Shown: positions 28,961 through 45,163 of the stretch, one piece after another | How positions within the stretch are numbered: the first letter of the stretch is position 1 | Layout: each line of letters starts with the position of its first letter | NCBI GenBank assembly: GCA_028714075.1 | Contig: JAQTMZ010000009.1 | Location: forward strand, 1-64,000 | Direction: 5' to 3' | Source: Gallionella sp. | Lineage (GTDB): Bacteria; Pseudomonadota; Gammaproteobacteria; Burkholderiales; Gallionellaceae | Length of the DNA stretch: 64,000 nt | The notes under the pieces: model-generated | What the model saw: the letters and a program-made list of their open reading frames with translations, nothing else | Database searches by the model: none | What the model was told of the DNA's origin: nothing | Program-made: the position numbers and the translations under genes

Positions 28961-29743
28961 TCGGCGCAATGCGGGTTTGCGTCGCGCCCAACCAGGTTGT
29001 TTTACTTCAGCTTCATTGCCGTTTATAGTCACCGCAGGCTGGATTAAATGCAGCGGCGTCCACATGCATTACTCTAGATTCTGTAATCCCAAGCGCGACA
29101 GATATCTTGCATGCACTACCATCAAGCTATTTACGTCTTGATCATCATCGTAAATCAAGAGATTTAATGTCAAGGCTTCGCTTCACACAATCCTGCAGAT
29201 TTTAAGTTTGACTCTTTTCGAGAAAACATTGCTAACTCGATTCGATTATTTAATTTAAAGCTATAGTTGTTTTGGCATAGAGCCATATAAAAATTATAGG
29301 CAATATTTTTTAATCTATTCAAAATGCCAATTACCCAAAAGAACTAGTTCTTTTTCTTTTGAAATTTTGACCATTTTTGTTGCAATGTATATTTCTTTTT
29401 GTTACATTTTCATAACAATGTATGGAGTGCTGTTATTAGACGTTTGTTATAAGTGGTTTCTGTTGCAAGGTGTGTTTTTTTTTGTTACATTTCAAATACA
29501 CATTATTTTGAACGGGGTTTTTAGTGCTGGTTGGAAGATAGTTAAGGAATCTCTGCAAAAGTCATCGAAATATGTTTCAGGGCTTTTTCAGAGTTTTTTT
29601 AATTATTATGTGTGTGTGGTTAAGGGAAATTAGTTTTTGTTGTGAAAGGTGTGAAAAGTTTTATCCGTTTTGTAATTTGAGTTTGAGTAGATTTAGTAGT
29701 ATCGAACAGTAATTTCAATTAATTTTAAGGGGGGTAATAAATA
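28961..29743. other. AT-rich leader ahead of the molybdoenzyme operon
   Basis: No convincing gene is found in these 783 bases. Past about 29040 the base content falls sharply to roughly 30 percent GC by eye, against close to 60 percent in the core genes. An inverted repeat TCTTGAT / ATCAAGA lies at 29136-29160. TTTTTGTTACATTT occurs twice (29396 and 29479), and TTGTTA-N8-TAACAA forms an inverted repeat at 29399-29418. An open frame at 29367-29633 has the T-rich, hydrophobic look of chance translation. This stretch probably holds the operon's promoter and regulator sites, but I cannot fix a promoter with confidence. Confidence 0.6.
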
Positions 29744-32700
29744 ATGAAGGAATTAATGAAGAATGTTGGTAGGCGCAGCTTTCTCAAGCTGTCTGCTACC
29801 GCCGGGCTCTTGGCAATGGCCAATAGAGCTTTTGCAGCCTCCTCATTTCTGAAGCCTGTTGCAGTGGACAACCCTCTTAAGGCCTACCCGAGCAGAGATT
29901 GGGAAAAGGTCTACAGGGATATGTACAAGGAAGACAGCCATTTTGTGTTCCTGTGCGCGCCAAACGACACACACAACTGCCTGCTTAAGGCTCATGTAAA
30001 AAATGACATAGTTGTCCGTATTTCACCATCATATGGATTCGGTAAGGCCGAAGGCATGGATGGAACCAAGGCCAGCCACCGGTGGGATCCGCGTTGCTGC
30101 AACAAGGGCCTGGTATTGGCAAGACGGGTTTATTCCGACAGGCGGCCCAAGGGCGCAATGGTACGGAAGGGATTCAAGGAATGGGCTGATGCAGGATACC
30201 CACGGAATGACCCAATGGGTTTTCCGGAAAAGAAATATCTGCAACGTGGTAAAGATCCATTTATCAAGCTGCCATGGGACGAGGCTTTCGCACTGTGCGC
30301 AAAAACATTCCATAACATCGCTACGACCTACTCCGGCGAGAGCGGTGCTCACCTGCTGGAAAAGCAGGGTTACGATCATGACATGATCCATTCCATGCAC
30401 GGTGCGGGTGTCAAGACCTTCAAGTTCCGTGGCGGTATGGCGCTGCTGGGTATTGTGCGCATATTCGGCCAGAAGAGAATGGCGAACATGATGGCCTTGT
30501 TGGACGCTAACGTTAGAAAAGTGGGGCCGGATGAAGCTCAGGGCGCAAAAGCACTGGACAGCTATACTTGGCATACCGATCTGGCGCCGGGAACCCCGAT
30601 GACCACCGGTCACCAGACCATGGACTATGACTTGGCCACACTGGAGCATGCCAAGTTTATCCTGCTGATGGGTACCAATCTGCTGGCCACCAAGATGCCG
30701 TGCGCGCACTGGGTAACCGAGTCCAGGATGAAGGGTGCGCATGTCACTGACATTTCCATTGATTATCATGCTACCGCCAACAAGGCGGACGACGTTATCA
30801 TCATTCGTCCGGGAACCGACTGCGCGTTTGCGCTTGGTCTGGCCCATGTGCTCATCAATGAAAAGCTGTACAACGAAAAATATCTGCTGGCCAATACCGA
30901 CATGCCGTTGCTGGTCAGAACCGATACCTGGACCAACCTGAAAGCGGCGGATGTTATTGCTGATTACCAGCAAGCCAAGCTCTCGAACCATCTCAGGATG
31001 CTCGGAGATAAGGAGCCTCTGCCGTTGCCGGTAGCGTTCCATGAAACTGCCATGGTCAGGGAAAGCCTGCGCAAGGAGTGGGGCGACGCGATGGTGTGGG
31101 ACAAGAAAACCGATAAGGCCGTCCCGTTGTCGCGCGACAAGTGCGGCGCGCAATACGCGAGCGCGGGAGTAGAGCCGGCGCTTACCGGCGGGTTCACGGT
31201 GAAATTGGTCAACGGGAAGACGGTCAAGGTTGTGCCTGTGTACCAGTTGGTTAAGGAGTATCTGGATGAGTTCTCGCCGGACAACACGGCTAGCCTTTGT
31301 GCATGCCCGAAGGAGGCAGTTCTCGATGTCGCGCACATGCTGGCGGCTAACCCGGGAAAGTCTATCATTGCCACCGGCGCCGGCAACAACCACTATTTCA
31401 ATATGCATCTGAAGGATCGTGCCTTGCTGCTGGTTGGCGCACTGACCGACAACATCGGGCATATCGGTGGTTGCAGTTTCGGTAACTTCGTGGGTAACTA
31501 TCGTGTTTCGCTGTACGGCGGATTGGGTCAGTGGCTTCTGGAAGACCCGTTCAACCCGCAACTGACTGCGCCGCAATTGAAGGATGTGAAGGATCGCAAG
31601 GTGGGTATGGCCTCCGTCAAGAAGTACGCCAAGGATGAATCGGCTAACTTCTATAACTACGGCGACCGTCCGCTGAAAGTCGGTACTCGCACATTGACCG
31701 ACCCGGGGCATATGCCTGCGCCGACCAAGACGTTGTGGCAAACCAACTCCAACTCGTCGCTCGGTAATGCAAAATGGCACTACGACTTGGTGATCAATAC
31801 CATGCCTAGGTGGGAAATGGTGTGTTATAGCGAATGGAACTGGACCGGCTCCTGCGAGTATTCCGACATCGTCTGGGGTGTTGACAGCTGGATGGAGCAA
31901 AAGCATACCGATATGTCCGGTTCGTGCACCAACTCGTTCATGTATGTCGCACCAGTCACGCCGATGAAGCGGGTGCATGACACCAGGGGTGACTTGGAGG
32001 TGTATGCCGGCGTATCGAAGGCTCTGTCCAAGATTACCGGCGACAAGAGATTTGCCGATTACTGGCATTTTGTAGGCGCGGCAGGAACCGATGCAGCACA
32101 GGATTCCGAGGTTTATCTGCAGCGGATTCTCAATGCCAGCCAGACAGGTCGAGGATACAATGTGATTGAGTTAACAGCAAAGGCCAAGCAGGGCATTCCT
32201 GCGCTGATGATGAACCGTACCTATCCACGGGTCAGCGGCTGGGAGCAGGCGGAGGAAGGTAAGCCTTGGTACACGAAAACCGGGCGTCTGGAGTTCTATA
32301 AGGACGATGCCAGACAAATCGAGGCCGGTGAAAACCTGCCGGTGTATCGCGAACCTATCGATTCGACCCGCTTTGAGCCGAATGTCATCATCGGCAAGTC
32401 GCGCGCATTCGCCCTGATGGCGTCACCCGAGAGCTACGGTCTGGAAACCGATGGAAACAGCCTGATGATTGCCGAAAACCGGCAAGGACGGAACGTTATA
32501 TTGACCACGGCGGAGCTGATGAAGTCACAGCACCCGCTCAAGCCGCAAGGGTATAGTTTCTGCTTCAATACCCCCAAGTATCGCCATGGCGCGCATACCA
32601 CGCCGATCGATACCGACCTGATGACGCTGTGGTGGGGTCCGTTTGGCGATATTTACCGCCACGACAAGAGGAAGCCGTCCACAGGTGAAGGTTTTGCGGA

Positions 32701-33265
32701 TATCAATCCGATCGACGCCAAGAAATTTGGTGTCGACGAGGGCGACTATATCTGGATTGACGCCGACCCAGGCGACAGGCCTTACCGCAACTGGAAAGAA
32801 GGCACGGCGGAGTACGAGCTGGCCAGGTTCAAAGTCAGAGCAAGATACTATGGCGGCATCTCCCCCGGAACCATCCGGATGTACTTTAACGCATACGGAT
32901 CAACGTACGGTAGCGTGGAAGGGCAGAAGACCCGGGCCGATGGACTGGCCAAGAACCCGAGAACCAACTATCAGGCGATGATGAGGACCGGGAGCCACCA
33001 GAGTTGCACGAGGGCATGGCTTGCGCCGACCCTGATGACCGATACACTGACTTTCAAGACGAATATTGGTCAAGAAATCGTCAAGGGTCACGAGGCGGAA
33101 ATCCACTGCGCGAACGGCGCCCCCAAGGAGTCATTCGTGAAAATAGCGTTGTGCGAGAAGGGCGGAACCGATGGCGGGGTGTGGCGAGTCGCTGCGCTTG
33201 GCTGGCGTCCTACCTATGAGAACGATGCGATGAAGAGGTACCTCAAGGGCGGGTTTGTCGGCTAA
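29744..33265 (+). CDS. nxrA: Nitrite oxidoreductase-type molybdoenzyme, catalytic alpha subunit
   Basis: A 1173-residue type II DMSO reductase-family protein binding Mo-bisMGD and one Fe-S cluster. The N-terminus carries a Tat signal (R10-R11 in GRRSFLKLSA, cleavage after about A31), so the enzyme works in the periplasm. H65, C70 and C78 in the CAPNDTHNC segment and the CC before NKGL are cluster candidates. D279 in TWHTDLAPGTP aligns with the Mo-binding aspartate of NarG. Length and the DTHNC / SHRWDPR pattern fit the periplasmic NXR branch better than the shorter chlorate, perchlorate or selenate reductases (about 910-930 aa). A strong AAGGGGGG ribosome site precedes the start. Nitrate or chlorate reduction remains possible. 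Confidence 0.8.
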   Translation: MKELMKNVGRRSFLKLSATAGLLAMANRAFAASSFLKPVAVDNPLKAYPSRDWEKVYRDMYKEDSHFVFLCAPNDTHNCLLKAHVKNDIVVRISPSYGFGKAEGMDGTKASHRWDPRCCNKGLVLARRVYSDRRPKGAMVRKGFKEWADAGYPRNDPMGFPEKKYLQRGKDPFIKLPWDEAFALCAKTFHNIATTYSGESGAHLLEKQGYDHDMIHSMHGAGVKTFKFRGGMALLGIVRIFGQKRMANMMALLDANVRKVGPDEAQGAKALDSYTWHTDLAPGTPMTTGHQTMDYDLATLEHAKFILLMGTNLLATKMPCAHWVTESRMKGAHVTDISIDYHATANKADDVIIIRPGTDCAFALGLAHVLINEKLYNEKYLLANTDMPLLVRTDTWTNLKAADVIADYQQAKLSNHLRMLGDKEPLPLPVAFHETAMVRESLRKEWGDAMVWDKKTDKAVPLSRDKCGAQYASAGVEPALTGGFTVKLVNGKTVKVVPVYQLVKEYLDEFSPDNTASLCACPKEAVLDVAHMLAANPGKSIIATGAGNNHYFNMHLKDRALLLVGALTDNIGHIGGCSFGNFVGNYRVSLYGGLGQWLLEDPFNPQLTAPQLKDVKDRKVGMASVKKYAKDESANFYNYGDRPLKVGTRTLTDPGHMPAPTKTLWQTNSNSSLGNAKWHYDLVINTMPRWEMVCYSEWNWTGSCEYSDIVWGVDSWMEQKHTDMSGSCTNSFMYVAPVTPMKRVHDTRGDLEVYAGVSKALSKITGDKRFADYWHFVGAAGTDAAQDSEVYLQRILNASQTGRGYNVIELTAKAKQGIPALMMNRTYPRVSGWEQAEEGKPWYTKTGRLEFYKDDARQIEAGENLPVYREPIDSTRFEPNVIIGKSRAFALMASPESYGLETDGNSLMIAENRQGRNVILTTAELMKSQHPLKPQGYSFCFNTPKYRHGAHTTPIDTDLMTLWWGPFGDIYRHDKRKPSTGEGFADINPIDAKKFGVDEGDYIWIDADPGDRPYRNWKEGTAEYELARFKVRARYYGGISPGTIRMYFNAYGSTYGSVEGQKTRADGLAKNPRTNYQAMMRTGSHQSCTRAWLAPTLMTDTLTFKTNIGQEIVKGHEAEIHCANGAPKESFVKIALCEKGGTDGGVWRVAALGWRPTYENDAMKRYLKGGFVG

Positions 33266-33278
33266 TTAAGACGTGTGG

Positions 33279-33303
33279 CCGTCGCCTTGGATCAAGGCGA
33301 CGG
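33279..33303 (+). promoter_or_regulatory. Intercistronic hairpin between nxrA and nxrB
   Basis: A perfect 11-bp stem (CCGTCGCCTTG / CAAGGCGACGG) with a GAT loop lies 14 bases after the alpha stop. No T run follows, so it looks like an mRNA-stabilising or processing element rather than a terminator. The beta start is 39 bases further on. Confidence 0.6.
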
Positions 33304-33341
33304 ACTTAAATCGAAATGATATTTGGAAAAGGGAGTACATA

Positions 33342-34484
33342 ATGGCAACAGTTAAAAACTGGCAACTAGACAGGGAGATGGAATATCCCTACGAAGGCAA
33401 CAGGCCAAAGCGGCAAATCACCATGTTCTTCGACTTGAACAAGTGTATTGCATGCCAAACCTGCACCATGGCCTGCAAGACAACCTGGACTTCGGGCAAG
33501 GGGCAGGAAGCGGTGTTCTGGAACAACGTGGAATCGAAGCCATACGGCTTCTATCCGCTGGCCTGGGACGTGAAGGTGCTCGATCTGCTGGGCTCTCAGC
33601 CTTGGTCCGGTTCTGTCTACAAAGGCAAGACCATATTCGAAGATGTTTCGTTCGATGAAAAGGTCAGGGGCTATCTCCCCGACGAAATGGACTATACCAG
33701 CCCGAACCTGGGCGAGGACGAGGCCAGCCAAATCCAGACCACCGAAGGCGACTATATCAAGGGTCCGGTACACAAGAGCTGGGGATTCTACCTGCCGCGT
33801 ATCTGCAACCATTGCACCTATCCGGGATGTCTCGCCGCTTGTCCCCGGAAAGCGATTTACAAGAGGCAGGATGACGGTATCGTTCTGATCGACCAGTCCA
33901 AGTGCCGCGGCTACCGTGAGTGCGTGAAGGCTTGCCCGTACAAGAAGGCGTTCTACAACAACACCACCCGTGTATCGGAGAAGTGCATCTCCTGCTATCC
34001 GAAGATCGAAGCGGGCGAAATGTCGCAGTGCGTGACCAACTGTATCGGCAGAATCCGTATTCAGGCTTTCAAGACAACTGATCTGACCAAGATCAGGAAG
34101 AATAATGTGGCTGATTTCCTGATTCATGTACGCAAGATCGCGCTGCCGCTGTATCCGCAATTTGGCACCGAGCCGAACAATTACTACATTCCGCCCATTC
34201 ACGTCGATCCGGCCTATCTGACCCAGATGTTCGGCCCGGGCGTCGAGAATGCGATCAAGCAGTACCGGAATGCAGGCAAGGACAAGGAATTGCTCGCGGC
34301 ATTGATTCTGTTCGGCAACACCGAGAAGATGAGCGACACATTTGCGTATGACGCAAAAACCGACGAAGCCGTTGCCTACGATGAGAAGGGTAAGGAAATT
34401 GTCAGGGTTCCGTGCACCGAGCCTATCTACATCAGGAAGGTCCTGAACGCGAAGTCCGGTGCCTTTCTTACTAACAATACGTAA
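33342..34484 (+). CDS. nxrB: Nitrite oxidoreductase-type iron-sulfur beta subunit
   Basis: A 380-residue electron-transfer subunit without its own signal, expected to be exported attached to the alpha subunit. Four cluster motifs are visible: C35-C38-C41-C45 in CIACQTCTMACK, CNHCTYPGCLAACP, CRGYRECVKACPYKK and CISCYP followed by CVTNC. In the third motif a tyrosine stands where the fourth cysteine of a ferredoxin would be, the place of tryptophan in NarH, so this cluster is probably [3Fe-4S]. The segment NVESKPYGFYPLAWDVK is typical of the NXR branch. AAAAGGGAG lies upstream of the ATG at 33342. Confidence 0.85.
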   Translation: MATVKNWQLDREMEYPYEGNRPKRQITMFFDLNKCIACQTCTMACKTTWTSGKGQEAVFWNNVESKPYGFYPLAWDVKVLDLLGSQPWSGSVYKGKTIFEDVSFDEKVRGYLPDEMDYTSPNLGEDEASQIQTTEGDYIKGPVHKSWGFYLPRICNHCTYPGCLAACPRKAIYKRQDDGIVLIDQSKCRGYRECVKACPYKKAFYNNTTRVSEKCISCYPKIEAGEMSQCVTNCIGRIRIQAFKTTDLTKIRKNNVADFLIHVRKIALPLYPQFGTEPNNYYIPPIHVDPAYLTQMFGPGVENAIKQYRNAGKDKELLAALILFGNTEKMSDTFAYDAKTDEAVAYDEKGKEIVRVPCTEPIYIRKVLNAKSGAFLTNNT

Positions 34485-34497
34485 GGGGGGAGCGATA

Positions 34498-35457
34498 ATG
34501 AAAAAGATATTTGTTGGAATAGCAGCACTGTGTTTGGCGGCCTCGTTTGCCTCTCCTGTCTTTGCCGATGACGATAAGATCGAAATCAGGTCAAAGGCAG
34601 TAACCGGCGCGGTACCGCTGGATCCGAACAGCCCTGTCTGGAAAGACGTGAAGTACCTGATGGTTGGAATGGTTCCGCAGAACTTGGTCGCTCCAGGCGC
34701 TGCCGAAGGTTCGGTTCCCAACGTGAAGGTTAAGTCGGTTCACAGCGACAAGGAAATCGCGTATTTGCTGGAGTGGTATGACGCAACTGAAAACGATACG
34801 GAAACCATGATGGACAAGTTTTCCGATGCGGCTGCCTTGATGTTCCCGGTAAAGCAAAAGACGGAGCCGTCGTTCATGATGGGTGATGCGGACAATCCCG
34901 TCCAGATCCTTTATTGGAAAGCGGCTTGGCAGAAGGATATCGACAAGGGTTATCAGGACGTGAGGGATGCATACCCTAACTATAACTACGACTCTTACCC
35001 GTTTGTCGATACTATGATTGACGCGAAAGGCAACAAGATCGTTGTGAAAGACAACGAAATCTACAAGCCAGTAGATCCGCAAGACCGCGCAATCAATACG
35101 CCGATAGGCAAGTATAGCGATGCTGCAAAGGGCTACTTGCCGGGCTTGGCGGTAAAGAACCCCAGATCCAAGATCGACAGGACAACGCCGGTTGAGGAAC
35201 TGAATGCAGTGGGTTTCGGTACACTGACTACCCAAGCGGACAGCAAGGCCAACGGCAAGGGTGTCAGGAGCTTCGGTTACTGGAAGGTGGTTATCACCCA
35301 TCCGTTGAAGGCTGAATATACCGGCCAAGACGCGGACTTGACAGCAGGTGATCACTTCATCACCGCTATCGCGATATGGGATGGTGCCAAGAAGAACCGC
35401 GCCGGGCGCAAGAACTTCTCGAACGGCGGCTGGATCTCGTTATATTTAGAAAAATAG
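34498..35457 (+). CDS. nxrC: Nitrite oxidoreductase-type heme-binding gamma subunit
   Basis: A 319-residue secreted protein with a clear Sec signal (MKKIFVGIAALCLAASF, cleavage near VFA). The mature part resembles the ethylbenzene dehydrogenase/DMS dehydrogenase gamma family, which holds one heme b with methionine and lysine ligands. Candidates occur in YLMVGMVPQNL and the C-terminal RAGRKNFSNGGWIS region. No CXXCH is present, so it is not a c-type cytochrome. It would take electrons from the beta subunit to periplasmic carriers. AGGGGGGAG lies just upstream of the ATG. The gene ends 20 bases before a terminator-like hairpin. Confidence 0.8.
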   Translation: MKKIFVGIAALCLAASFASPVFADDDKIEIRSKAVTGAVPLDPNSPVWKDVKYLMVGMVPQNLVAPGAAEGSVPNVKVKSVHSDKEIAYLLEWYDATENDTETMMDKFSDAAALMFPVKQKTEPSFMMGDADNPVQILYWKAAWQKDIDKGYQDVRDAYPNYNYDSYPFVDTMIDAKGNKIVVKDNEIYKPVDPQDRAINTPIGKYSDAAKGYLPGLAVKNPRSKIDRTTPVEELNAVGFGTLTTQADSKANGKGVRSFGYWKVVITHPLKAEYTGQDADLTAGDHFITAIAIWDGAKKNRAGRKNFSNGGWISLYLEK

Positions 35458-35477
35458 CCGTATAGCAGGAAATAAAG

Positions 35478-35510
35478 GGGGCGGCAAGAAATTGCCGCCC
35501 CTGTCGTTTT
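35478..35510 (+). terminator. Terminator-like hairpin after nxrC
   Basis: A perfect 10-bp stem (GGGGCGGCAA / TTGCCGCCCC) with a GAAA tetraloop is followed by TGTCGTTTT. It lies 20 bases past nxrC and 29 before the chaperone gene. It may end most transcripts and let a minor share read through, giving less chaperone than enzyme. Confidence 0.7.
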
Positions 35511-35530
35511 AATTATTGAAGGAGTTATTG

Positions 35531-36256
35531 ATGGCTGAAAAGGAAATGGCGCTTGCACGGGCCGATGTTTACAGGCTATTGTCAACGGCGTTTGTCTATC
35601 CCAGCAAAGAGGGGATGGAATCGTTGCGGGAGCTCGCAGCCGATGTCGAGGATTCAATAAATCTCCTCCCTTATGACATTAAGGAAGAATACCAAACGTT
35701 CAGCAGTAATGTTGCAAAGGCCGATGCGCAGGCGTTGGAACCGGAATATACCGAGCTGTTTTTGACGCGTATGTTTTGCCCGCCGACCGAAACAATTTAT
35801 GGAAAGAGCAGTTTCAATACACCGAACATTCTTGGCGATATCAGCGGCTATTACAAGGCATTCGGATTTACGCTATCCGACACGGCCCATGTTCCGCACG
35901 ATCACATAGGGGTCGAACTCGAGTTCATGAGCTTTCTCGAGCTGAAGATTGCCTATGCGCTGGAGCAGGAGAATGAGGAAAACCTTGATATCTGCAATAC
36001 TGCAAAAAGGCGATTTCTGGCCGAGCATATCGGAAGATGGACTTGGCTGTTTGGAGTAAACCTCACGGATAGATCCAAAGAAGACTATTTCAAGAGCCTT
36101 GGCCAACTGATATCCAAATTTTTCGATGCGGAACTTGAATTTAATGGAATCAAGGTTGACATCGAAGGAATTGAGCAGTTGCCTCAGGTCGACCCGGAAG
36201 TCGTGTGTCCGCAGGCAAGCGGAGAGATACCAGAGGAGAACCCTCTGCCGATTTAA
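35531..36256 (+). CDS. TorD/NarJ-family molybdoenzyme chaperone
   Basis: About 241 residues, all helical in appearance and without signal or membrane segments. The pattern ARADVYRLLSTAFVYPS near the start and EYTELFLTRMFCPPTETIYG in the middle are typical of the TorD/DmsD/NarJ family, as is the later FMSFLELKIAYAL. Such proteins hold the alpha subunit's Tat signal and help insert the Mo cofactor before export. The ATG at 35531 has GAAGGAG upstream. Its place behind nxrABC points to the NxrA protein as client. Confidence 0.85.
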   Translation: MAEKEMALARADVYRLLSTAFVYPSKEGMESLRELAADVEDSINLLPYDIKEEYQTFSSNVAKADAQALEPEYTELFLTRMFCPPTETIYGKSSFNTPNILGDISGYYKAFGFTLSDTAHVPHDHIGVELEFMSFLELKIAYALEQENEENLDICNTAKRRFLAEHIGRWTWLFGVNLTDRSKEDYFKSLGQLISKFFDAELEFNGIKVDIEGIEQLPQVDPEVVCPQASGEIPEENPLPI

Positions 36257-36358
36257 CCGGTTGGAGTGTCATTGCCGTATATCGGCGTGGCCAACTGTGC
36301 CGCGCCGTTTTTTTGGAGAAAATTATCTTAAATCGTAATTCCTTATTGTCTACGAGGT

Positions 36359-36952
36359 ATGGCTCCACTCATGGGTAATGAAGAGGTAATGGGGAGACGC
36401 GAGTTCTTCAGGAAAAGCTTTTCTTTTTTTGCGGAAAGGTCTGCCGAAAAGATTGAAGGCGAAGAAAGTGCAAAAGCTCATAGCCTGATCAGGCCACCGG
36501 GTGCGGTTGATGAGGTGGAGTTTCTTTCGCTGTGTACGAAGTGCGACGATTGCATGAATGCCTGCCCGCATGGCAGCATCAAAAAGGCCGGCAGTAAATC
36601 CGGGCCCGCAGGCAATACACCTGTTATCATTCCATCTGAAAAACCCTGCTATCTTTGCGATGACTTTCCCTGCATCAAGGCATGTACTACCAAAGCGCTG
36701 GTTCCCGTTGCGGACAAGCGGGAGGTCAGGATGGGGAAGGCGTATATTGATTTAACCCTGTGCTACAACGCAGGGGAAGACAGCGGAAAGATGTACCCGA
36801 TGTGCGTGTTGAAATGCCCATTGTCCGGAGAGGCTATTGGTATGGAGGATTCAAAACCGGTAGTCAATTACGAAAAATGCGTTGGTTGTGGTGTCTGTGA
36901 AAGTGCTTGCCTGGCGGTCAATAACCAGGTTGCTATTCGGGTGCGGAGATGA
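36359..36952 (+). CDS. NapF-like ferredoxin with several 4Fe-4S motifs
   Basis: Up to 197 residues; the start could also be 36371 or 36389. The N-terminus has GRREFFRKSF but no hydrophobic stretch after it, so it is probably cytosolic rather than a Tat substrate. RPPGA precedes the first cluster motif as in NapF. Cysteine groups are CTKCDDCMNACP, CYLCDDFPCIKAC, a group with MCVLKCP, and CVGCGVCESAC. NapF proteins help mature the periplasmic nitrate reductase. Here a like role for the alpha or beta subunit is inferred from its place between the chaperone and an Fe-S scaffold ATPase. Confidence 0.75.
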   Translation: MAPLMGNEEVMGRREFFRKSFSFFAERSAEKIEGEESAKAHSLIRPPGAVDEVEFLSLCTKCDDCMNACPHGSIKKAGSKSGPAGNTPVIIPSEKPCYLCDDFPCIKACTTKALVPVADKREVRMGKAYIDLTLCYNAGEDSGKMYPMCVLKCPLSGEAIGMEDSKPVVNYEKCVGCGVCESACLAVNNQVAIRVRR

Positions 36953-36990
36953 TTTCGCCGTGAAATAATTAATATGAAGAGAATGATTAA

Positions 36991-37899
36991 ATGACAAAAG
37001 AAGTTATAAAGTTCAAAGACAAGAAGGTCTGCGAGAGGTTTCATAGCTGCCAGATGTGTGATGTGGCAGAGAGTTGCAAACTGGATCATGACGCGCATTG
37101 CAAGTGGCTGGTCAATAAACGCATGTCCGATATCAAATTCAAGATCATCGTCGGCAGCAACAAGGGCGGCGTTGGGAAAAGCACTGTCACGGTAAATCTT
37201 GCTTTTGCGCTTGAGAGAATGGGTTTTAAGGTTGGCTTGGCCGATGCTGACTTGCACGGACCGAATATCCCGAAAATGCTGGGTATCGAAGAGGTAAGGC
37301 TGCGCGGGGTCGAGGATGGCATAGCTCCCCATACCATGCCTAACGGGATGAAAGTGGCGTCCTTGGGTCTGATGATCGAGGATCCAAACGAGCCGATTGT
37401 CTGGAGGGATGCGGTGAAATACGAATTCCTCATAGAACTCCTCGGAAACATGAGCTGGGGAAAACTCGATTTCCTGGTGATAGACCTTCCGCCTGGTACC
37501 GGAAATGAGCAAATTACGATAATGGATTTCATCCCAAACCTGGATGGCGCCGTTGTTGTCAGCACACCGCAGGACGTGGCGCTTCTCGATGCAAGGAAAA
37601 TGATTTCTTTTGTACGCGAGAGAAATATTCAAATTCTCGGCATAGTGGAAAATATGAGCGGGCTGATCTGCCCGCATTGCAGTGGTGAGATTAATGTATT
37701 CAGGAAGGGTGGAGGATTGAATGTGGCGGATGAGTTGGGTGTTCCGTTCATCGGCAATATTCCCCTGGATGGCGAGATAACCATGTGCTCGGATAAGGGG
37801 ACGCCTATTGTTCAGTCACAACCCGATTCTGTAGCGGCGAAGGCATTTATGGGGGTTGCGGAAAAGTGCGCGGAATCTTTGGGAATCAAGCGCATTTGA
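36991..37899 (+). CDS. Mrp/Nbp35-like Fe-S cluster carrier ATPase
   Basis: A 302-residue SIMIBI-class ATPase with a deviant Walker A (KGGVGKS, residues 58-64), DADLHGPNIPKMLG and VIDLPPGTGNEQ. The C-terminal CPHC in SGLICPHCSGE is the cysteine pair that bridges a [4Fe-4S] cluster between two subunits. Unlike usual bacterial Mrp/ApbC it has an N-terminal cysteine group: C14, then C20-x2-C23-x5-C29, and C37. The x2/x5 spacing is that of eukaryotic Nbp35. It is 38 bases after the ferredoxin gene, suggesting cluster delivery to the molybdoenzyme subunits. This may be a dedicated copy rather than the housekeeping one. Confidence 0.85.
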   Translation: MTKEVIKFKDKKVCERFHSCQMCDVAESCKLDHDAHCKWLVNKRMSDIKFKIIVGSNKGGVGKSTVTVNLAFALERMGFKVGLADADLHGPNIPKMLGIEEVRLRGVEDGIAPHTMPNGMKVASLGLMIEDPNEPIVWRDAVKYEFLIELLGNMSWGKLDFLVIDLPPGTGNEQITIMDFIPNLDGAVVVSTPQDVALLDARKMISFVRERNIQILGIVENMSGLICPHCSGEINVFRKGGGLNVADELGVPFIGNIPLDGEITMCSDKGTPIVQSQPDSVAAKAFMGVAEKCAESLGIKRI

Positions 37900-38038
37900 T
37901 ATGACTTTCTGGATGTAAATTTATTTTGGAAACAGCTGTTGGCGGTTTTGTAAATGCGGATGCGCGACAATGGCATTAAATCACGAGGTTTCACCAACTG
38001 CCGTTTCCAGGTTTATTGGTTAGAACAGGAATGGAGCT

Positions 38039-38470
38039 ATGCAGCAACTAAGCGATTTTGAGCAAGGGCTTAAATTTTTCTATGATGACGACTACGCCAA
38101 TGCGGCAAGCTGTTTTCTAAAAGCGGCACAGCAAGGGGATGCAGAGGCTCAATTCAGCCTGGGGAATATGTTCGTCGAAGGGCAAGGTATTCCGCGGGAT
38201 GAACAACAAGCAGCATCATGGTTCCGCAAGTCCGCAGAGCAGGGATTTGTAGCGGCACAGGTTAATTTGGGGGTGATGTACACGCAGGGCCAGGGCGTTG
38301 AGCGGAACCTGGTTGAGGCGCATAAATGGTTCAACATTGCCGGAGGTGCTGTCGATGAGGAGGGGATGGATTTGCGCGAGGTTGTGGAAGAGCAAATGAC
38401 ACCCGCCGAAATTTCAGAGGCAATGCGCTTGGCAAGAGACTGGATAACGGCATATCACAGGCTCCATTAA
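38039..38470 (+). CDS. Sel1-repeat protein
   Basis: A 143-residue protein with two clear Sel1-like repeats (AEAQFSLGNMFVEGQGIP and AAQVNLGVMYTQGQGVERN) and a preceding partial one. No signal peptide or membrane segment is seen. Such helical repeats mediate protein contacts. It starts 139 bases after the ATPase gene and could be transcribed with it. Function is unknown. Confidence 0.8.
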   Translation: MQQLSDFEQGLKFFYDDDYANAASCFLKAAQQGDAEAQFSLGNMFVEGQGIPRDEQQAASWFRKSAEQGFVAAQVNLGVMYTQGQGVERNLVEAHKWFNIAGGAVDEEGMDLREVVEEQMTPAEISEAMRLARDWITAYHRLH

Positions 38471-38535
38471 GGATTTGTGTCCAGGGTGGAGGATAGGCTA
38501 AACAAGAAAAATGTGCCGGAAACCCCGAAAATTTT

Positions 38536-40182
38536 ATGAGTAAAACTGGCCGCAACGATCCATGCCCATGCAATAGCGGCAAGAAATATAAACAATGCTG
38601 CCAGCGGCGTGATGATGAAGCTCACATAGCAAATCAGCGCTCCACAGCCCCACCCCTTCAAATTCTGCAAGCCGCACTGGCGCATCACCAGGCCGGGCGT
38701 TTGCCGCAGGCGGAAGCCATCTATCGGCAAATACTACAGGCAGAGCCCAATCATCCGGACGCCCTGCATTTTTCAGGTTTGATTGCCCATCAGACGGGGA
38801 AGAACGAAATTGCCATTGAGCTTATCAGGAAGGCGCTCTCGTTCAGGCCGGATGATACCGACGCGCACTACAACTTGGGAATTGTGCTCCATGAACAAGG
38901 CAAGCTGGACGACGCAGCCGCCAGTTACCGCAGGGCGCTTGCCTTAACCCCGGATTATGCCGATGCGCATAACAACTTGGGGAACGTACTCAAGGATCAA
39001 GGCAAGCTGGACGAAGCAGTAGCCAGCTACCGTATGGCACTCACGCTCAAGCCGGACTACGCCGATACGCACAACAACCTGGGAAATATTCTTCGGGAAC
39101 AAGACAAGCTGGATGACGCAGTCGCCAGCTACCGTATGGCGCTTACGCTCAAGCCGGATTATGCCGATGCGCACAACAATCTGGGGAATGTGCTTCAGGA
39201 GCAAGGCCGGTTGGACGAGGCTGTTGCCAGCTATCGCAGAGCACTCACGCTCAATCCGGATTATGTCGATGCGCACTACAACCTGGGAAATGTGCTCCAG
39301 AAACAAGGCCAACTGGATGAAGCGGTCGCCAGCTATCGCAGGGTGCTCGCGTTCAAGCCGGATTATGCCGAGGCACACAAAAATTTGGGAAATGTATTCC
39401 AGGAACAAGGCCAGTTGGACAAAGCGGTGGAGAGTTACCACCAGACCGTCAGGCTGGACCCGAAAAACGAAAGTGCAGAGCATTTGATAGCAGCCTTGAC
39501 TGCCAAGACTCCCGAGCGTGCGCCGAGCCAATACATCGAAAAACTATTTGACGGCTACGCAAATAAATTTGATACGCACTTGGTTCGGGATCTCGAATAT
39601 AAAATTCCGTCGGAATTAGTTGCCCTCCTCAAGCAGGCTACAGAATTGCCTGACAAGGCATGGAGTGTGCTGGACTTGGGATGCGGCACCGGGCTGGTTG
39701 GCCTGGAAATTGCGCCCCACGCGCGGCAACTGGTGGGCGTCGATCTCTCCAACAAAATGCTGGCGAGAGCGCAGACACGAAAGGTTTATCACAGGCTGGT
39801 ACATTCAGACCTGCTGCCCATGATGCGCGGCGAGGAGGCATCGAGCTACGATGTGATTGTTGCCGCAGATGTGTTCGTATATCTGGGGATGCTTGATGAA
39901 ATTGTCGCCGAGGCCAAGCGTCTGCTCCGTGTGGGCGGTTACTTCATGTTTTCGGTCGAGGCTCTTGATGCGCTGCCCGGTGGCATTATCGATCCGGAAA
40001 ATAAACCAGAGTACAAGCTGAATCAGTCAGGGCGTTATGCCCACTCCGCAAGCTATTTGGAAAGGCTGGCCTCCGCCAACGGCTTTAGCTCACTCAGTAT
40101 GGTTTCCACACCGGTTCGCCTCGAAGACGGATTGCCGATTCCGGCCTGGGCCGCAGTATGGGAAAGTGGTGCATCCCGTTGA
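38536..40182 (+). CDS. SEC-C / TPR / SAM-methyltransferase fusion protein
   Basis: A 548-residue protein in three parts. Residues 1-30 hold a SEC-C zinc motif (GRNDPCPCNSGKKYKQCC). About nine tetratricopeptide repeats follow (LDEAVASYRRALTLNPDY and variants), several almost identical to each other. From about residue 335 there is a class I methyltransferase (VLDLGCGTGLVGLEIAP, VGVDLSNKML, DVIVAADVFVYLG). The substrate is unknown; the TPR region probably binds it. It may share a transcript with the Sel1 gene 65 bases upstream. Confidence 0.85.
   Translation: MSKTGRNDPCPCNSGKKYKQCCQRRDDEAHIANQRSTAPPLQILQAALAHHQAGRLPQAEAIYRQILQAEPNHPDALHFSGLIAHQTGKNEIAIELIRKALSFRPDDTDAHYNLGIVLHEQGKLDDAAASYRRALALTPDYADAHNNLGNVLKDQGKLDEAVASYRMALTLKPDYADTHNNLGNILREQDKLDDAVASYRMALTLKPDYADAHNNLGNVLQEQGRLDEAVASYRRALTLNPDYVDAHYNLGNVLQKQGQLDEAVASYRRVLAFKPDYAEAHKNLGNVFQEQGQLDKAVESYHQTVRLDPKNESAEHLIAALTAKTPERAPSQYIEKLFDGYANKFDTHLVRDLEYKIPSELVALLKQATELPDKAWSVLDLGCGTGLVGLEIAPHARQLVGVDLSNKMLARAQTRKVYHRLVHSDLLPMMRGEEASSYDVIVAADVFVYLGMLDEIVAEAKRLLRVGGYFMFSVEALDALPGGIIDPENKPEYKLNQSGRYAHSASYLERLASANGFSSLSMVSTPVRLEDGLPIPAWAAVWESGASR
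38860..39460 (+). repeat. Tandem 102-bp repeats coding for TPR units
   Basis: Six or so units of 34 codons repeat with high identity (for example GCCAGCTACCGTATGGC recurs). Such DNA can gain or lose units by recombination and may be assembled wrongly from short reads. Confidence 0.7.
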
Positions 40183-40220
40183 TGCAGCATGCAGGCTTAA
40201 TTTTGCGGCGCAAATAGCTT

Positions 40221-40664
40221 TCAATAAAAGTCGGATTGCGCTACTCCAGTCGGCAAGCCGTCACCATCATCCGGTTCCGCCATGGCTTCCAAGGCACTTA
40301 TGATCGCAGGATCAGCACCATGACTGACCAAGCGTGAGATAACCGTAAGATGAGCATTAAAATAAGCGAGATGCAATGGGGTATAGTCAAGATGGCCTTG
40401 AGCATGGACGTTGGCACCCCGTTTCAGCAGCATGTCCACAACTTCAAGATGACCGCCACTGGCCGCATAATGCAAGGGAGTAGCTCCTGCGCTATCCTTG
40501 GAATCAACGTCATATCCTTGGTCGAGCAACCGTTGAACCTCATTCATATTTCCCGCATAGCAGGCATCATGCAAAGGCTCATCAGAGGCATCTGCCGTGT
40601 TGTTGAGTATATCTTTACCGGCTTCGAGGCCCAGAATTGATGCGGAAGTTTCTTGTGAGAACAT
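40221..40664 (-). CDS. Ankyrin-repeat protein
   Basis: A 147-residue protein with three to four ankyrin repeats: DEPLHDACYAGNMNEVQRLLDQG, seen in part as EPLHDACYAGN, then ATPLHYAASGGHLEVVDMLL and YTPLHLAYFNAHLTVISRLV. No signal or membrane segment is visible. It converges on the TPR-methyltransferase gene with 38 bases between the stops. Its partner is unknown. Confidence 0.85.
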   Translation of the reverse strand: MFSQETSASILGLEAGKDILNNTADASDEPLHDACYAGNMNEVQRLLDQGYDVDSKDSAGATPLHYAASGGHLEVVDMLLKRGANVHAQGHLDYTPLHLAYFNAHLTVISRLVSHGADPAIISALEAMAEPDDGDGLPTGVAQSDFY

Positions 40665-40771
40665 GGTGTTGACTTAAAGTATGTGACGGGTCGGTATTAC
40701 ACCACTAACTCTCCCTGTTTTCAATACCCTGAAATAAACGTCGGTATGAAAACGGACTATGTTGCTTTAGT

Positions 40772-41380
40772 TCAAGTTATGAATACCAGCAAGCTTGCCA
40801 ATATTGCCAACGCCAATGGTGCTATGGCCCAGAAAGCCTTGCCGGACTCGATCGCTTCTTCGCTTTCCCCTTGCTTGTACCCGTTGAACATGCTGCGTAC
40901 CAGATTTTCGTGGTGCGCCAAACTGCCCACAATTACTCCCAGCACGTGAAAAATGACCATGCCCAGCATGGTATAGGACAGCACGTCGTGAGCCGTTTCC
41001 ATCCACTCACCGCCCACCTCGGCATAATCTGCAATGCCGCTGGCGACAGTGGCGAAGCCAAGCAATATCAGGGTGAATATGGCGTAGCTGCCCGCTGGAT
41101 TGTGCCCCAGCCAGTGGCTCGGCTTGCCCTTCAGCAATCCGCCAAGGTAGGCAACAACCTCGCGTGGCGAGAACATGAATGATGCAAAGCGCGCATAACG
41201 TGTTCCCGCTATCCCCCAGAAAACCCGGAAAACAAGAATACCCGCCACTGAGTATCCTGCTGCCACGTGACGCAAGCGTTGCACCTCGCTATCGCCCGTT
41301 ATAAAAGTCAAAATGAAAGCAGTGACCAGAAGCCAGTGCCCGATGCGCGTGGGAATATCCCAAACCAGTATTCTTTTCAT
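40772..41380 (-). CDS. Di-heme cytochrome b561-like membrane protein
   Basis: A 202-residue protein with four hydrophobic spans and histidines suited to bind two hemes b: H14 in PTRIGHWLL, H38 in RLRHVAAGY, and later ones in METAHDVLSY and IFHVLGVIVG. It ends the three-gene cytochrome run whose other members are a tetraheme DHC and an SHP-like cytochrome. In known SHP operons this cytochrome b passes electrons from the quinol pool to DHC. That role is inferred here. Confidence 0.88.
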   Translation of the reverse strand: MKRILVWDIPTRIGHWLLVTAFILTFITGDSEVQRLRHVAAGYSVAGILVFRVFWGIAGTRYARFASFMFSPREVVAYLGGLLKGKPSHWLGHNPAGSYAIFTLILLGFATVASGIADYAEVGGEWMETAHDVLSYTMLGMVIFHVLGVIVGSLAHHENLVRSMFNGYKQGESEEAIESGKAFWAIAPLALAILASLLVFIT

Positions 41381-41419
41381 GGCAATTAACTTCTCAGGAA
41401 TCTCAAGCCGGTTTTTCAG

Positions 41420-42343
41420 TTATCGGTGTTTTTTCCACCATGCTTTTTTCTTTTCCCCGTCCGGACCTCCGGGCACGTGAATGCTGTCCTCAGACCAGTC
41501 TCCGTCTTCTACATTGATATGGCAGGCCGCGCAGTTCGCCCGGTTTTTAACAGCCGGATCGGACCAGGTATTATTCGGTATTTCATCATGCAACTCAGTA
41601 AACCAAGGCGTATCGCTGATCCGCAGGCTGGGCGCGCTATATTTCGGACGGTATGCAGCATGGTAAATCAGAAAATCAAGAATTTCCTTGTTGTCCTTCG
41701 GGTTCAGTTCTGCATTTGCATCAAAGTGCTTGCCTAGCCTCCCCATCAACTTTTGCCAGTCGGCGGCTATCAGGAATCTTGGCGGGTAAGCGAGATGGCA
41801 GCTACCACACTCCTCCTTCCATTTTGTATTGTCAGGAGGAAGAGCGCGCTTGCCAGCATCAGCATGCACTCCATCAGCATGTGGTGCCTTCTCTCCGGCT
41901 TTGGGTACGCGAATGCTGCGTTTAGACCAGTCACCGCTTCCTGCATTGATATGGCAGGCCTCGCAATTAGCCCGGTTTTTGACAGCCGGGTCGGACCAGG
42001 TATTGCTTGGTATCTTGCGATGTGCACGAGTGAACCAAGGCGTGTCGCTGATCCGCAAGCTGGAGGCGCTATTTTTCGCACGGAATCCTGCATGGAGCTG
42101 CAGAAAATCAAATATCTCTTTATTATCCCCTGCACCCAGCACTAAATGTGTACCAAAGTGATTATCAAGCCCCTCCATTAACCTTTGCCAGTCAATTGCT
42201 CTCAGTAATTTTGGAGGGTAAGCGATATGGCAGCTACCGCACTCCTTCTTCCATTTCGGATTATCAGGAGGGCGCTTGCCACTTTCGGCATGCGCCATGG
42301 TGCTACTCAAGACAAAAACTAATGCGACAACAAGCCATTTCAT
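41420..42343 (-). CDS. Tetraheme DHC-type cytochrome c (internal duplication)
   Basis: A 307-residue secreted protein with signal peptide MKWLVVALVFVLSSTMAHA. Four CXXCH sites bind heme c: residues 35-39, 127-131, 179-183 and 271-275. Residues 25-150 and 170-295 are near copies (both have WSDPAVKNRANC and LRISDTPWFT), so a di-heme DHC unit has been duplicated. DHC is the electron donor of SHP in Rhodobacter and Shewanella. The start overlaps the SHP stop as ATGA. The usual DHC has only two hemes. Confidence 0.88.
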   Translation of the reverse strand: MKWLVVALVFVLSSTMAHAESGKRPPDNPKWKKECGSCHIAYPPKLLRAIDWQRLMEGLDNHFGTHLVLGAGDNKEIFDFLQLHAGFRAKNSASSLRISDTPWFTRAHRKIPSNTWSDPAVKNRANCEACHINAGSGDWSKRSIRVPKAGEKAPHADGVHADAGKRALPPDNTKWKEECGSCHLAYPPRFLIAADWQKLMGRLGKHFDANAELNPKDNKEILDFLIYHAAYRPKYSAPSLRISDTPWFTELHDEIPNNTWSDPAVKNRANCAACHINVEDGDWSEDSIHVPGGPDGEKKKAWWKKHR

Positions 42344-42762
42344 GACTTTACTTCTTGAATGATGAATTGGATGAAGTCCGCTTTCTCGGCAGCCGTGCAT
42401 TCACGGCCGATTACTTCCGTGCAGTTACGCTTGAACCATTTCTCGACCTTCTTGTAATTGGTAAAGCGTTCCGGGTTTACCGCCGGTGAAACCGGGGCAA
42501 TGCGCTTGTCGGTGATGACATGCTTTCCGTCAGCAGTCAGGTCTTTCCCGTGGCAGGCAGTGCAATTGGGCATCTTGTGGGATACGCCCCACTCCCTGGT
42601 AAAGAAATTGTTGCCGCGTGTTGCGGATGGCGTAAACCCCGGCGTTTCCTTGGCGGCTTCTGCCGCATAGCTGGTCACCAAGCTGGCGGGCGTATCGGCA
42701 GCAAACACTGAACTTGTGCCTGCCATAAACAGTAAGGCCATACAGATTTTTTTGGTATTCAT
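42340..42762 (-). CDS. shp: SHP-like monoheme cytochrome c
   Basis: A 140-residue secreted cytochrome: signal peptide to about residue 21 (VFAA), heme site CTACH at 67-71, and a cysteine pair C114/C122 that may form a disulfide. The EWGVSHKMPNCTACH and WFKRNC segments match the sphaeroides heme protein group, in which the sixth heme ligand is a displaceable asparagine, so small molecules such as oxygen or NO can bind. It is followed by genes for DHC and cytochrome b, the standard SHP set. The physiological reaction of SHP is not settled. Confidence 0.82.
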   Translation of the reverse strand: MNTKKICMALLFMAGTSSVFAADTPASLVTSYAAEAAKETPGFTPSATRGNNFFTREWGVSHKMPNCTACHGKDLTADGKHVITDKRIAPVSPAVNPERFTNYKKVEKWFKRNCTEVIGRECTAAEKADFIQFIIQEVKS

Positions 42763-42974
42763 GATTTAGGTTCAAACATTCCAAAGGGTAAAACGGTAAA
42801 GTTGTTATACAGGTCCATCGTAACGTGACTGTATCGGGTTGCAAACTGCGGAAAGTTAAGCCACGGTTCGCTGCGAAGAACGGGCTTCGCGCAATCTCCT
42901 TTCCTGCAATCAGTCATCCATTCCCACATGGCAATTGTTATGTCATATAGGCACCAGCCGTTGGTTTGCTTCAT
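42759..42974 (-). CDS. Possible small protein coupled to SHP
   Basis: An open frame of about 71 codons (99 or so if the frame's earlier start near 43016 is used, which gives 85 residues in all) ends in an ATGA overlap with the SHP start, the same coupling used by SHP and DHC. The product is rich in aromatics and has three cysteines (WCLYDI, DCRKGDC) but no signal peptide or known family. No ribosome site is seen before the ATG at 42974. It may be a chance frame. Confidence 0.3.
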   Translation of the reverse strand: MKQTNGWCLYDITIAMWEWMTDCRKGDCAKPVLRSEPWLNFPQFATRYSHVTMDLYNNFTVLPFGMFEPKS

Positions 42975-43016
42975 TTTCGGTTGTCGTTCGACCGTTGCCG
43001 CTATCCATAAGTTCAC

Positions 43017-44146
<1,130 letters not shown>

Positions 44147-44294
44147 GGCACTCGTCTTCAGCGTACCGTTGTAGCCGCTGTTTTTGAGCATGCCGTGAGG
44201 CATGATAGCCATGCAGAATTATTGTAGTAGCTCAGCTTCATCCCATTTCTGTGCTTTGATTTGGGTGAATTTTGAATTTTAATGCCCCTATGAA

Positions 44295-44648
44295 TCAATG
44301 GGGGGTTTTCTTTTGTTCCGTAGAAGGCAATTCCAGTTGAACCACGGAACTGTTTACTTGTTGCACCTGCTGATTCACGGTCTGCGTGATTTGGCTCGCC
44401 GCTTGTTCGGCACGAAGAACTTCCTGATTCATCTTTTGCTGCATTTGGTGGAATTCTTCAACCGACATTCCGCGCGCAATGTCGACTTTGGCGCCGTCAA
44501 GGTCGGCCTTGACGCTGTTGACGAAGCGTTGCGCACGTCCCCACACATGGCCGAAAGTTCGTGCCACCTTGGGCAGGCGCTCCGGGCCGATGACGATGAG
44601 AGCCACCACCAGGATCACCATCAATTCTGAAAAGTCGACACCAAACAT
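44295..44648 (-). CDS. tatB: Sec-independent protein translocase TatB
   Basis: A 117-residue protein: one N-terminal membrane helix (MFGVDFSELMVILVVALIVIG), the GPERLPKVAR hinge, then an amphipathic helix and a charged tail. With TatC it forms the receptor for twin-arginine signals such as that of the alpha subunit here. It follows tatA by 15 bases. tatC, which normally comes next, is absent. Confidence 0.93.
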   Translation of the reverse strand: MFGVDFSELMVILVVALIVIGPERLPKVARTFGHVWGRAQRFVNSVKADLDGAKVDIARGMSVEEFHQMQQKMNQEVLRAEQAASQITQTVNQQVQQVNSSVVQLELPSTEQKKTPH

Positions 44649-44663
44649 GGAAATGTGAACCGG

Positions 44664-44882
44664 CTATACGTTGGCGTGCGTCTTGCCTTTTACTTCACCT
44701 TCGATGGTCTGGCCGCCCTGTTGCACTTGTTTAGGTGCGTCTTCTTCGCTCTTCATGCCGTCCTTGAACCCCTTTACCGCACCACCCAGATCACTGCCCA
44801 TATTGCGCAGTTTCTTGGTGCCGAAAATCAAGATGACAACCAACAAGACAATTGCCCAGTGCCAAATACTGAATGAACCCAT
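44664..44882 (-). CDS. tatA: Sec-independent protein translocase TatA
   Basis: A 72-residue pore-forming subunit: [21 protein letters not shown] membrane helix split by a short polar start, the [20 protein letters not shown] amphipathic helix seen here as [12 protein letters not shown] and VKGFKDGM, and a charged tail. It is the first gene of a tatA-tatB pair facing the chlorite dismutase gene. Confidence 0.95.
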
Positions 44883-45049
44883 TTTGTTTCTCCTAAAAAT
44901 TAACCGGCCTTAGTCGCACCGTATCATGACCGTAATGTGACCGCAGATGATATGCATATGCAGTGTGAATACTTCTTGTCTACTTTTGTTTTTCATTATA
45001 CCAATAAATATATCAGACAAGCGCAACTCGAATCCTGAGCGAATGAATG

Positions 45050-45163
45050 GTTGCTTCGCAACAGGACTAAATTGTTTTCGCCCGCCGCTATGCGGCTTAA
45101 CTTGCTGCGCAAGTTAGTCTACGCCGCAACCTGGTTCTGTTGTTTCACAACAGAACCAGGTTG
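45050..45163. repeat. Row of four small hairpins at the proB end
   Basis: Four perfect inverted repeats stand in a row: GTTGC/GCAAC (45050-45062), GCCGC/GCGGC (45084-45096), TAACTTGC/GCAAGTTA (45098-45116) and a 16-bp arm pair CAACCTGGTTCTGTTG (45127-45142) with its complement (45148-45163). The first three have three-base loops. The largest one has the proB stop codon in its loop and may serve as terminator. Confidence 0.7.

Follow-up and report, generated by a model that had tools for sequence, protein, structure and literature searches.

In the family Gallionellaceae, the genes nxrAB have been described as exclusive to Candidatus (Ca.) Nitrotoga, and iron oxidisers as clearly delineated from nitrite oxidisers, according to the accessible part of a comparison of 103 genomes published in 2023 (PMC10734462). 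The nitrite oxidoreductase (NXR) of Ca. Nitrotoga belongs to a wider clade of catalytic subunits (NxrA) in which nitrite oxidisers are mixed with putative nitrate reducers, and in 2018 it was an open question whether the Nitrotoga-type enzyme had originated there or had been acquired horizontally; both statements are taken from a portion of PMC6050957. Here we describe a complete periplasmic NXR operon at positions 29744-37899 of a 64,000-nucleotide stretch of Gallionella DNA (the window), situated on contig C9 of genome G000 (further contigs of this genome are referred to as C1, C12 and C13) and comprising nxrA, nxrB, nxrC and the genes of a TorD-like chaperone, a NapG/MauM-like ferredoxin and an Mrp/ApbC-type ATPase. 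The operon probably represents a periplasmic NXR of the Ca. Nitrotoga type in Gallionella, oxidising nitrite with cytochrome c as electron acceptor, possibly besides Fe(II) oxidation. The NXR itself adds a new branch to a known kind; what is new is its host, its co-occurrence with a Cyc2-like gene and a set of alpha subunits that have diverged. No report of NXR in Gallionella was found in the open-licence literature (preprints not covered), and none is contained in the accessible parts of PMC12501874, PMC13264449, PMC9239080 and PMC10732223.

The operon and the block in which it resides are composed as follows (Tat, twin-arginine translocation; Fe-S, iron-sulfur; ORF, open reading frame):

28961-45144, no strand: 16-kb inserted block between dacC and proB, recognised by GC content and comparison with relatives
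29744-33265, forward strand: nxrA, catalytic alpha subunit, 1173 amino acids, with Tat motif GRRSFLKL and Fe-S and molybdenum (Mo) motifs
33342-34484, forward strand: nxrB, beta subunit, Fe-S protein, 380 amino acids from the probable ATG at 33342; a longer GTG frame starts at 33273
34498-35457, forward strand: nxrC, heme-b type gamma subunit (EB_dh), probable ATG at 34498, Sec-type signal peptide
35516-36256, forward strand: nxrD, TorD-like/DMSOR type II chaperone; TTG start in the ORF list, with an ATG 15 bases in
36359-36952, forward strand: NapG/MauM-like ferredoxin-type protein, by domain matches
36991-37899, forward strand: P-loop ATPase of the Mrp/ApbC type, N-terminus Cys-rich, probably an Fe-S carrier, by domain matches

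ORFs and Pfam matches at these positions bore out the preliminary description of a 1173-residue alpha subunit with a Tat motif, a beta subunit, a heme-b-type gamma subunit and a TorD-like chaperone, the latter two with PF09459 and PF02613 above cut-off; the cut-offs of PF00384 for alpha, PF13247 for beta, the Fer4 families and PF10609 were also passed. Of the two Fe-S proteins that had been read downstream, the first stood as a NapG-like protein, and the last proved to be a P-loop ATPase, Cys-rich at its N-terminus and of the Fe-S carrier type. Among the NCBIfam models, the best or near-best matches were TIGR03479 (alpha), TIGR03478 (beta), TIGR03477 (gamma), TIGR03482 (chaperone) and the NapG models, all below their curated cut-offs, as expected for models built without this branch; the scores against the DMSO-reductase type II models therefore place the family and do not name the protein. 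All three subunits had their best PDB match in entry 7b04 (listed as nitrite oxidoreductase, and presumably that of Ca. Kuenenia), with 812 bits over residues 8-1171 for NxrA, 396 bits for NxrB and 85 bits for NxrC, and NxrA scored 150 bits against 4ydd (annotated as a type II enzyme of the DMSO reductase family, which we take to be perchlorate reductase) and 113 bits against NarG. As judged by eye from the translations, alpha carries a Tat signal, gamma a Sec-type signal and beta none.

For the phylogeny of the alpha subunit, 64 sequences were gathered, 21 judged redundant or poor were removed, and a tree of the remaining 43 was calculated in a quick IQ-TREE run with SH-aLRT (Shimodaira-Hasegawa-like approximate likelihood ratio test) support only and with long-branch warnings around L087, Natronococcus, ClrA and the outgroups; anammox NxrA and PcrA, which are not part of this tree, were compared through PDB search scores only. 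NxrA of G000, of STA_88 (genome G092, a Gallionellaceae bacterium) and of REEB275 (locus L028, a Betaproteobacteria bacterium) formed one clade (support 100), sister to that of group g11 (100), which we infer to be Ca. Nitrotoga. The next branches were L032 (Nitrospinota, 97) and L031 (Nitrospirae, 100). The Nitrospira-type sequences, a label of the same standing as that of g11, made up a separate group with 36-40% identity to NxrA of G000, and ClrA fell far outside the NxrA clade, as did long sequences from other Gallionellaceae that we label NarG-like by their length and tree position. By sequence, NxrA is thus to be counted with the periplasmic Nitrotoga-type NXR, apart from NarG, PcrA (by PDB score) and ClrA, in line with the periplasmic branch to which it had been assigned beforehand; NarG, PcrA, ClrA and EbdA as its identity were ruled out by the PDB scores and the tree.

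The likeness to the NXR of Ca. Nitrotoga, as far as the latter is covered in the available text of PMC6050957, extends from the sister NxrA to the gene order, mostly nxrABCD followed by an Mrp-type gene, the Tat and Sec signals and the Calvin-Benson-Bassham cycle. Counterparts of the Mrp-type ATPase were found in 5 of 6 Nitrotoga-group loci (77-79% identity), in REEB275 (90%) and in L032 (65%); the NapG-like gene had partial matches of 37-38% at the same place in three of the six Nitrotoga-group loci and a full-length match of 57% in the Nitrospinota locus L032, and was not found at the nxr locus of REEB275. G000 differs from Ca. Nitrotoga in that its NxrA is only 65-67% identical, it belongs to another genus, it has a Cyc2-like gene, and it carries QT or QC where QM is reported after the Mo-Asp motif. 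The periplasmic NXRs of Nitrospira, Nitrospina and anammox bacteria are of the same three-subunit type, although NxrA of the Nitrospira type is as distant as stated above. Loci L031-L036, putative NXR or nitrate reductases from metagenome-assembled genomes (MAGs) of uncultured Nitrospirae, Nitrospinota, Chloroflexi and Euryarchaeota, fall into the same wider clade, with nxrABC in all six and nxrD in five of them, but show 49-67% NxrA identity and stem from other phyla. Closest were STA_88 and REEB275 (82-89% NxrA identity), both of which share with G000 RuBisCO and a NirK that is 64-71% identical to its own. STA_88 differs in its genus code, in having two NxrA copies, one of them partial, and in giving no match to the Cyc2 motif or chlorite dismutase; REEB275 has one NxrA copy and an AspS of 73% identity (family range 80-95%).

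Genome G000 (2.83 Mb, 27 contigs, 100% complete, 2.25% estimated contamination) is in the same family as STA_88, which was equated with G092 because their matches fall at identical positions, and its genus of 76 genomes (G000 and G014-G088) within the Gallionellaceae is most probably Gallionella. In an AspS tree of 52 rows (the window, its 29 best genus matches, G017, 19 genomes of other groups, STA_88 and REEB275), the window was nested in the genus group g1 with a support of 99; its AspS was at most 95% identical to others of the genus, 88% to STA_88 and 80-87% to g11. This core-gene placement agrees with the Gallionellaceae host of the preliminary description and with its guess, made from GC content, of a lineage different from Nitrotoga, and membership of G000 in Nitrotoga was rejected on the same grounds. 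Matches to NxrA at E = 0 occurred in 14 of 158 family genomes, namely G000, STA_88 and 12 of the 19 g11 genomes; among the remaining 75 genomes of the G000 genus, NXR went undetected, the best matches to the NxrA query being short and weak.

It is very improbable that the nxr contigs belong to a Nitrotoga-like organism and entered a Gallionella bin by mistake, even if the number of contigs, the estimated contamination and the termination of C12 within nxrB leave some room for it. For the window, such a binning artefact was rejected: it is a single contig with both flanks ordered as in G066, whose flanking genes are 78-95% identical to those of the window (72% for one small gene). In G066, G017 and G018, three of the five relatives' regions, dacC and proB lie 1.5-4.7 kb apart with no match to any gene of the nxr block between them, whereas in G000 they enclose the 16-kb block; no such pair was seen in the stretches retrieved from G053 and G014. 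As the contig is continuous through both genus-type flanks, the operon is on the chromosome of this genus. The GC content was 50.8% over 28961-44900 and 53.9% in nxrABC, with 57.4% and 56.8% in the flanks. The mean tetranucleotide correlation to core segments of G000 was 0.91-0.95 for its own segments (including the C9 flanks, C12 and C13), 0.866 for the block, 0.949 for G053 and G066, 0.919 for G017, 0.900 for STA_88, 0.871 for a Nitrotoga-group genome and 0.781 for G018, a weak test that cannot exclude a close relative, since segments of G053, G066 and G017 score like those of G000 itself. The loci on C12 and C13 adjoin genes that read as core genes by eye, and the 65-67% identity to the Nitrotoga-group NxrA also speaks against a misplaced Nitrotoga-like contig.

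Two more nxrA genes were found in G000, on C13 (87%) and C12 (85%); together with the chlorite dismutase gene at 43310-44146 and, on C1, a cyc2-like gene, these loci go beyond the preliminary description. The C13 locus comprises nxrABC near proS, hscA/hscB and ribonucleotide reductase genes (names by eye), an integrase remnant and two MarR-type regulators, and the C12 locus consists of nxrA and the start of nxrB at the contig end, after gapA, pgk, pyk and fba (names by eye). The Fe-S motifs and the Mo-Asp motif (Y-4x-D-11x-Q) are intact in all three NxrA copies. Among the three loci, NxrA was 85-89% identical, as opposed to 98-100% between the NxrA copies of two g11 genomes compared (NxrB and NxrC 100%); NxrB was 99-100% identical, with a fragment of 126 residues for C12, and NxrC, present in two copies, 96%. 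The synonymous divergence (Nei-Gojobori) was 0.29-0.40 for nxrA, 0.03-0.09 for nxrB and 0.15 for nxrC, so that nxrB, with 126 codons in the case of C12, diverged 3 to 12 times less than nxrA. Between C9 and C13, identity rose to about 100% where nxrB begins, fluctuated between 78 and 100% in nxrC and collapsed beyond. Judged from these sequences, nxrB and partly nxrC look homogenised, with nxrA free to diverge. The ratio of non-synonymous to synonymous divergence (dN/dS) between the NxrA copies was 0.21-0.23, indicating purifying selection on three intact copies. On the strength of this value and of the low synonymous divergence of nxrB, we rejected the view that positive selection alone explains the contrast between alpha and beta; homogenisation of nxrB accounts for it better. 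The same purifying selection, like the accessory genes kept at the C9 locus, counts against the operon being present without serving growth, as a detoxifying or residual enzyme of an obligate iron oxidiser; with NXR in one of 76 genomes of the genus it is probably a recent arrival and could be transient, yet we regard this explanation as highly unlikely.

The NxrA copy of C12 grouped with that of REEB275 (support 97). Given the AspS identity of 73%, either the copies predate the split from the gene of that lineage or genes have moved between lineages; the grouping of one copy with a betaproteobacterium apparently outside the family is suggestive of horizontal spread. A Nitrotoga-type NXR clade that now comprises Gallionella, STA_88 and this betaproteobacterium bears on the choice between origin and horizontal transfer as posed in the accessible part of PMC6050957. 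The two STA_88 copies duplicated separately. Residues 290-292, after the Mo-Asp, are HQT in C9, FQC in C13, C12 and REEB275, and HMN and HQC in STA_88. Departures at conserved sites numbered 22-27 of 350 columns in the G000 copies and 0-23 in the 20 background rows (leave-one-out), which suggests that the former are somewhat more divergent and not clearly degenerate. Of the five Nitrospira-type genomes with two copies, three had NxrA at 87-88% and NxrB at 100% identity and one 97.5 and 99.8%, respectively, while the fifth had NxrA at 86% and no second NxrB in the stretch compared. The Nitrospira-type loci (L216-L225) thus display an alpha/beta contrast like that of G000, though the enzyme is only 36-40% identical. 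Diverged NxrA with identical NxrB has reportedly been described for N. defluvii.

Cyc2 iron oxidases are characterised by a signal peptide, a sole N-terminal CXXCH in the FARQT motif and a porin-like remainder, at a length of about 400-450 residues; the query used for them was a provisional 38-residue N-terminal consensus. It matched G000 at C1:325399 (E 2.9e-18), in an ORF of 449 amino acids with a signal peptide and a single CXXCH in a FARQT motif, followed by a gene that reads as prmC. This candidate Cyc2 had no Pfam match; of the 14 homologues compared, with 39-76% identity, 13 aligned over 376-449 residues and one over 266. At E <1e-5, the motif was present in 117 of the 158 family genomes, and among the 14 NXR genomes only in G000 (Fisher p 5e-8, for cases that are not independent, 12 of the 14 being of one genus). 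G000 is therefore the only one of the 158 with both NXR and a strong match to the Cyc2 motif, bearing in mind that incomplete genomes can miss either; G095 has NxrA and a weak match (0.029). Three g11 genomes, G104, G105 and G112, matched the motif and had no full-length NxrA, and in the AspS tree G104 and G112 were sister to the remaining g11 rows; the three may represent iron oxidisers that branch basally to the nitrite oxidisers. With NXR and a Cyc2-like gene, G000 bears markers of both iron and nitrite oxidisers, groups that are held separate in the accessible part of PMC10734462, and runs counter to the exclusivity stated there.

The further energy metabolism of G000 includes the RuBisCO large subunit and five matches to PF00115, four of them above cut-off; typed by length and score, these are a protein of cbb3 size, an aa3-like one, one that with 788 amino acids has the size of qNor, and one of 571 amino acids. 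The aa3-like protein shared 68% identity with that of STA_88 and 37-38% with its counterparts in REEB275 and G014. NirK, above cut-off, was 71% identical to that of STA_88, 64% to that of REEB275 and 44% to that of G014. NirS was not found in G000, and neither was a NarG-like gene with NxrA as the query at E 0.001, the same query having found long NarG-like frames in other genomes of the family.

Direction of the reaction, route of the electrons, use of two donors and roles of the isoenzymes are what we infer from these genes. NxrAB would be folded with the help of the NxrD chaperone, exported by Tat, and meet the Sec-exported heme-b subunit NxrC in the periplasm, where nitrite would be converted to nitrate with release of protons. 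Electrons would pass from NxrA via NxrB and NxrC to a periplasmic cytochrome c and on to the heme-copper oxidases, and reverse electron flow would sustain the Calvin cycle. Fe(II) oxidised by Cyc2 may supply periplasmic cytochromes as well, which makes the use of both donors plausible. With NxrA diverged and NxrB nearly identical, the three loci would probably provide isoenzymes for differing conditions. On a tentative footing, slightly less probable than not, we extend this to a dual iron and nitrite oxidiser with one cytochrome pool, in which distinct NXR isoenzymes are maintained by gene conversion of NxrB, and partly NxrC, while NxrA diverges, including its active-site loop, as would have happened independently in Nitrospira. 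If so, the iron and nitrogen cycles would be joined in one cell, providing a natural test of the coexistence of two lithotrophies.

The enzyme may instead act mainly as a periplasmic nitrate reductase, receiving Fe(II) electrons via Cyc2 and cytochromes at low oxygen and feeding a partial denitrification by NirK and a qNor-like protein. We consider this, the principal alternative, rather unlikely. It would agree with the presence of NirK and of the 788-residue heme-copper family protein and with the lack of a NarG-like or NirS match in G000, and a periplasmic enzyme could accept electrons from Fe(II) without an uphill step to quinol. A nitrate reduction located in the periplasm, however, draws on the protons of that compartment and is not in itself energy-conserving; the three kept copies suggest a main energy enzyme, and chlorite dismutase is common to G000 and the nitrite-oxidising Nitrotoga group. 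NXR-type enzymes are regarded as reversible, and nitrate reducers occur in the sister clade, as the accessible part of PMC6050957 has it, but the cultivated relatives with the closest enzyme are nitrite oxidisers in what is available of PMC6050957 and PMC10734462. Nitrite oxidation is favoured because the nearest characterised enzyme performs it and because, in the periplasm, it adds to the proton gradient, which nitrate reduction does not. Several points weigh against it. Sequence does not fix the direction, and the wider sister clade includes nitrate reducers (PMC6050957, accessible part); as a nitrate reductase, NXR could feed denitrification through NirK and the qNor-size PF00115 protein. 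The loop after the Mo-Asp departs from that of Nitrotoga, V287, invariant in 20 of 20 background rows, being T in all six sequences of the G000/STA_88/REEB275 clade. Finally, STA_88 gave no chlorite dismutase match despite having an NXR of the same clade.

The remainder of the inserted block includes, downstream of the operon:

38039-38470, forward strand: Sel1-repeat protein; counterparts adjoining nxr have 84% identity in REEB275 and 52% in a single Nitrotoga-group locus
38536-40182, forward strand: TPR protein with methyltransferase domain, within the block
40221-40664, reverse strand: ankyrin-repeat protein, within the block
40772-41380, reverse strand: cytochrome b561-type membrane protein (Pfam)
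41420-42400, reverse strand: dihaem cytochrome c (DHC, two stretches; Pfam)
42340-42762, reverse strand: DUF1924 protein with CXXCH motif (Pfam)
43310-44146, forward strand: chlorite dismutase with signal peptide (Pfam, PDB match)
44295-44648, reverse strand: TatA/B-type protein, right end of the block

Chlorite dismutase, 5.4 kb downstream of the NXR operon, gave a full-length match to solved enzymes of the long type, presumably clade I, with 427 bits over residues 37-277 against 3q08. Its position would suit chlorate or perchlorate respiration, in which alpha reduces chlorate and the neighbouring dismutase yields O2; this is the least likely of the alternatives and in our view barely probable, alpha being distant from ClrA and PcrA (by PDB score, and for ClrA also by the tree) and the same dismutase occurring in the Nitrotoga group. 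Among the 158 genomes, strong matches were confined to G000 and 15 of the 19 g11 genomes, with best copies 59-78% identical, besides one weak match elsewhere (G135); in the other 75 genomes of the G000 genus, none was detected. For the nitrite-oxidising enzyme favoured here, the exported dismutase would remove chlorite formed when NXR encounters chlorate.

Some further observations concern the nxr loci and their relatives. Similar MarR-type regulators stand on either side of the C13 nxr locus (L037 10881-11357; L038 1531-2064), and a protein of about 600 amino acids with weak similarity to DUF2325 is encoded next to the nxr genes at two of the three loci, on C13 downstream of them (L037 18333-19001 with L038 1-1155) and on C12 upstream (L039 12336-14162). 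The two NxrA copies of STA_88 (L029/L030, also L040/L041) are 91% identical over the part present, and in copy 1 Met replaces the Gln of Y-4x-D-11x-Q, which is kept in 19 of 20 background rows. The Nitrospinota MAG that holds a Nitrotoga-like NXR has a second NxrA, L087 (G161:C235), of 40% identity. REEB275 (JAGWPH010000266.1, 1636-9758), apparently outside the Gallionellaceae, combines nxrABCD and the Mrp-type and Sel1 genes with RuBisCO and NirK and is possibly a further lineage of nitrite oxidisers among the Betaproteobacteria. The Mrp-type ATPase with its Cys-rich N-terminus, recurring in nxr operons, is a candidate for an NXR-specific Fe-S maturation factor.

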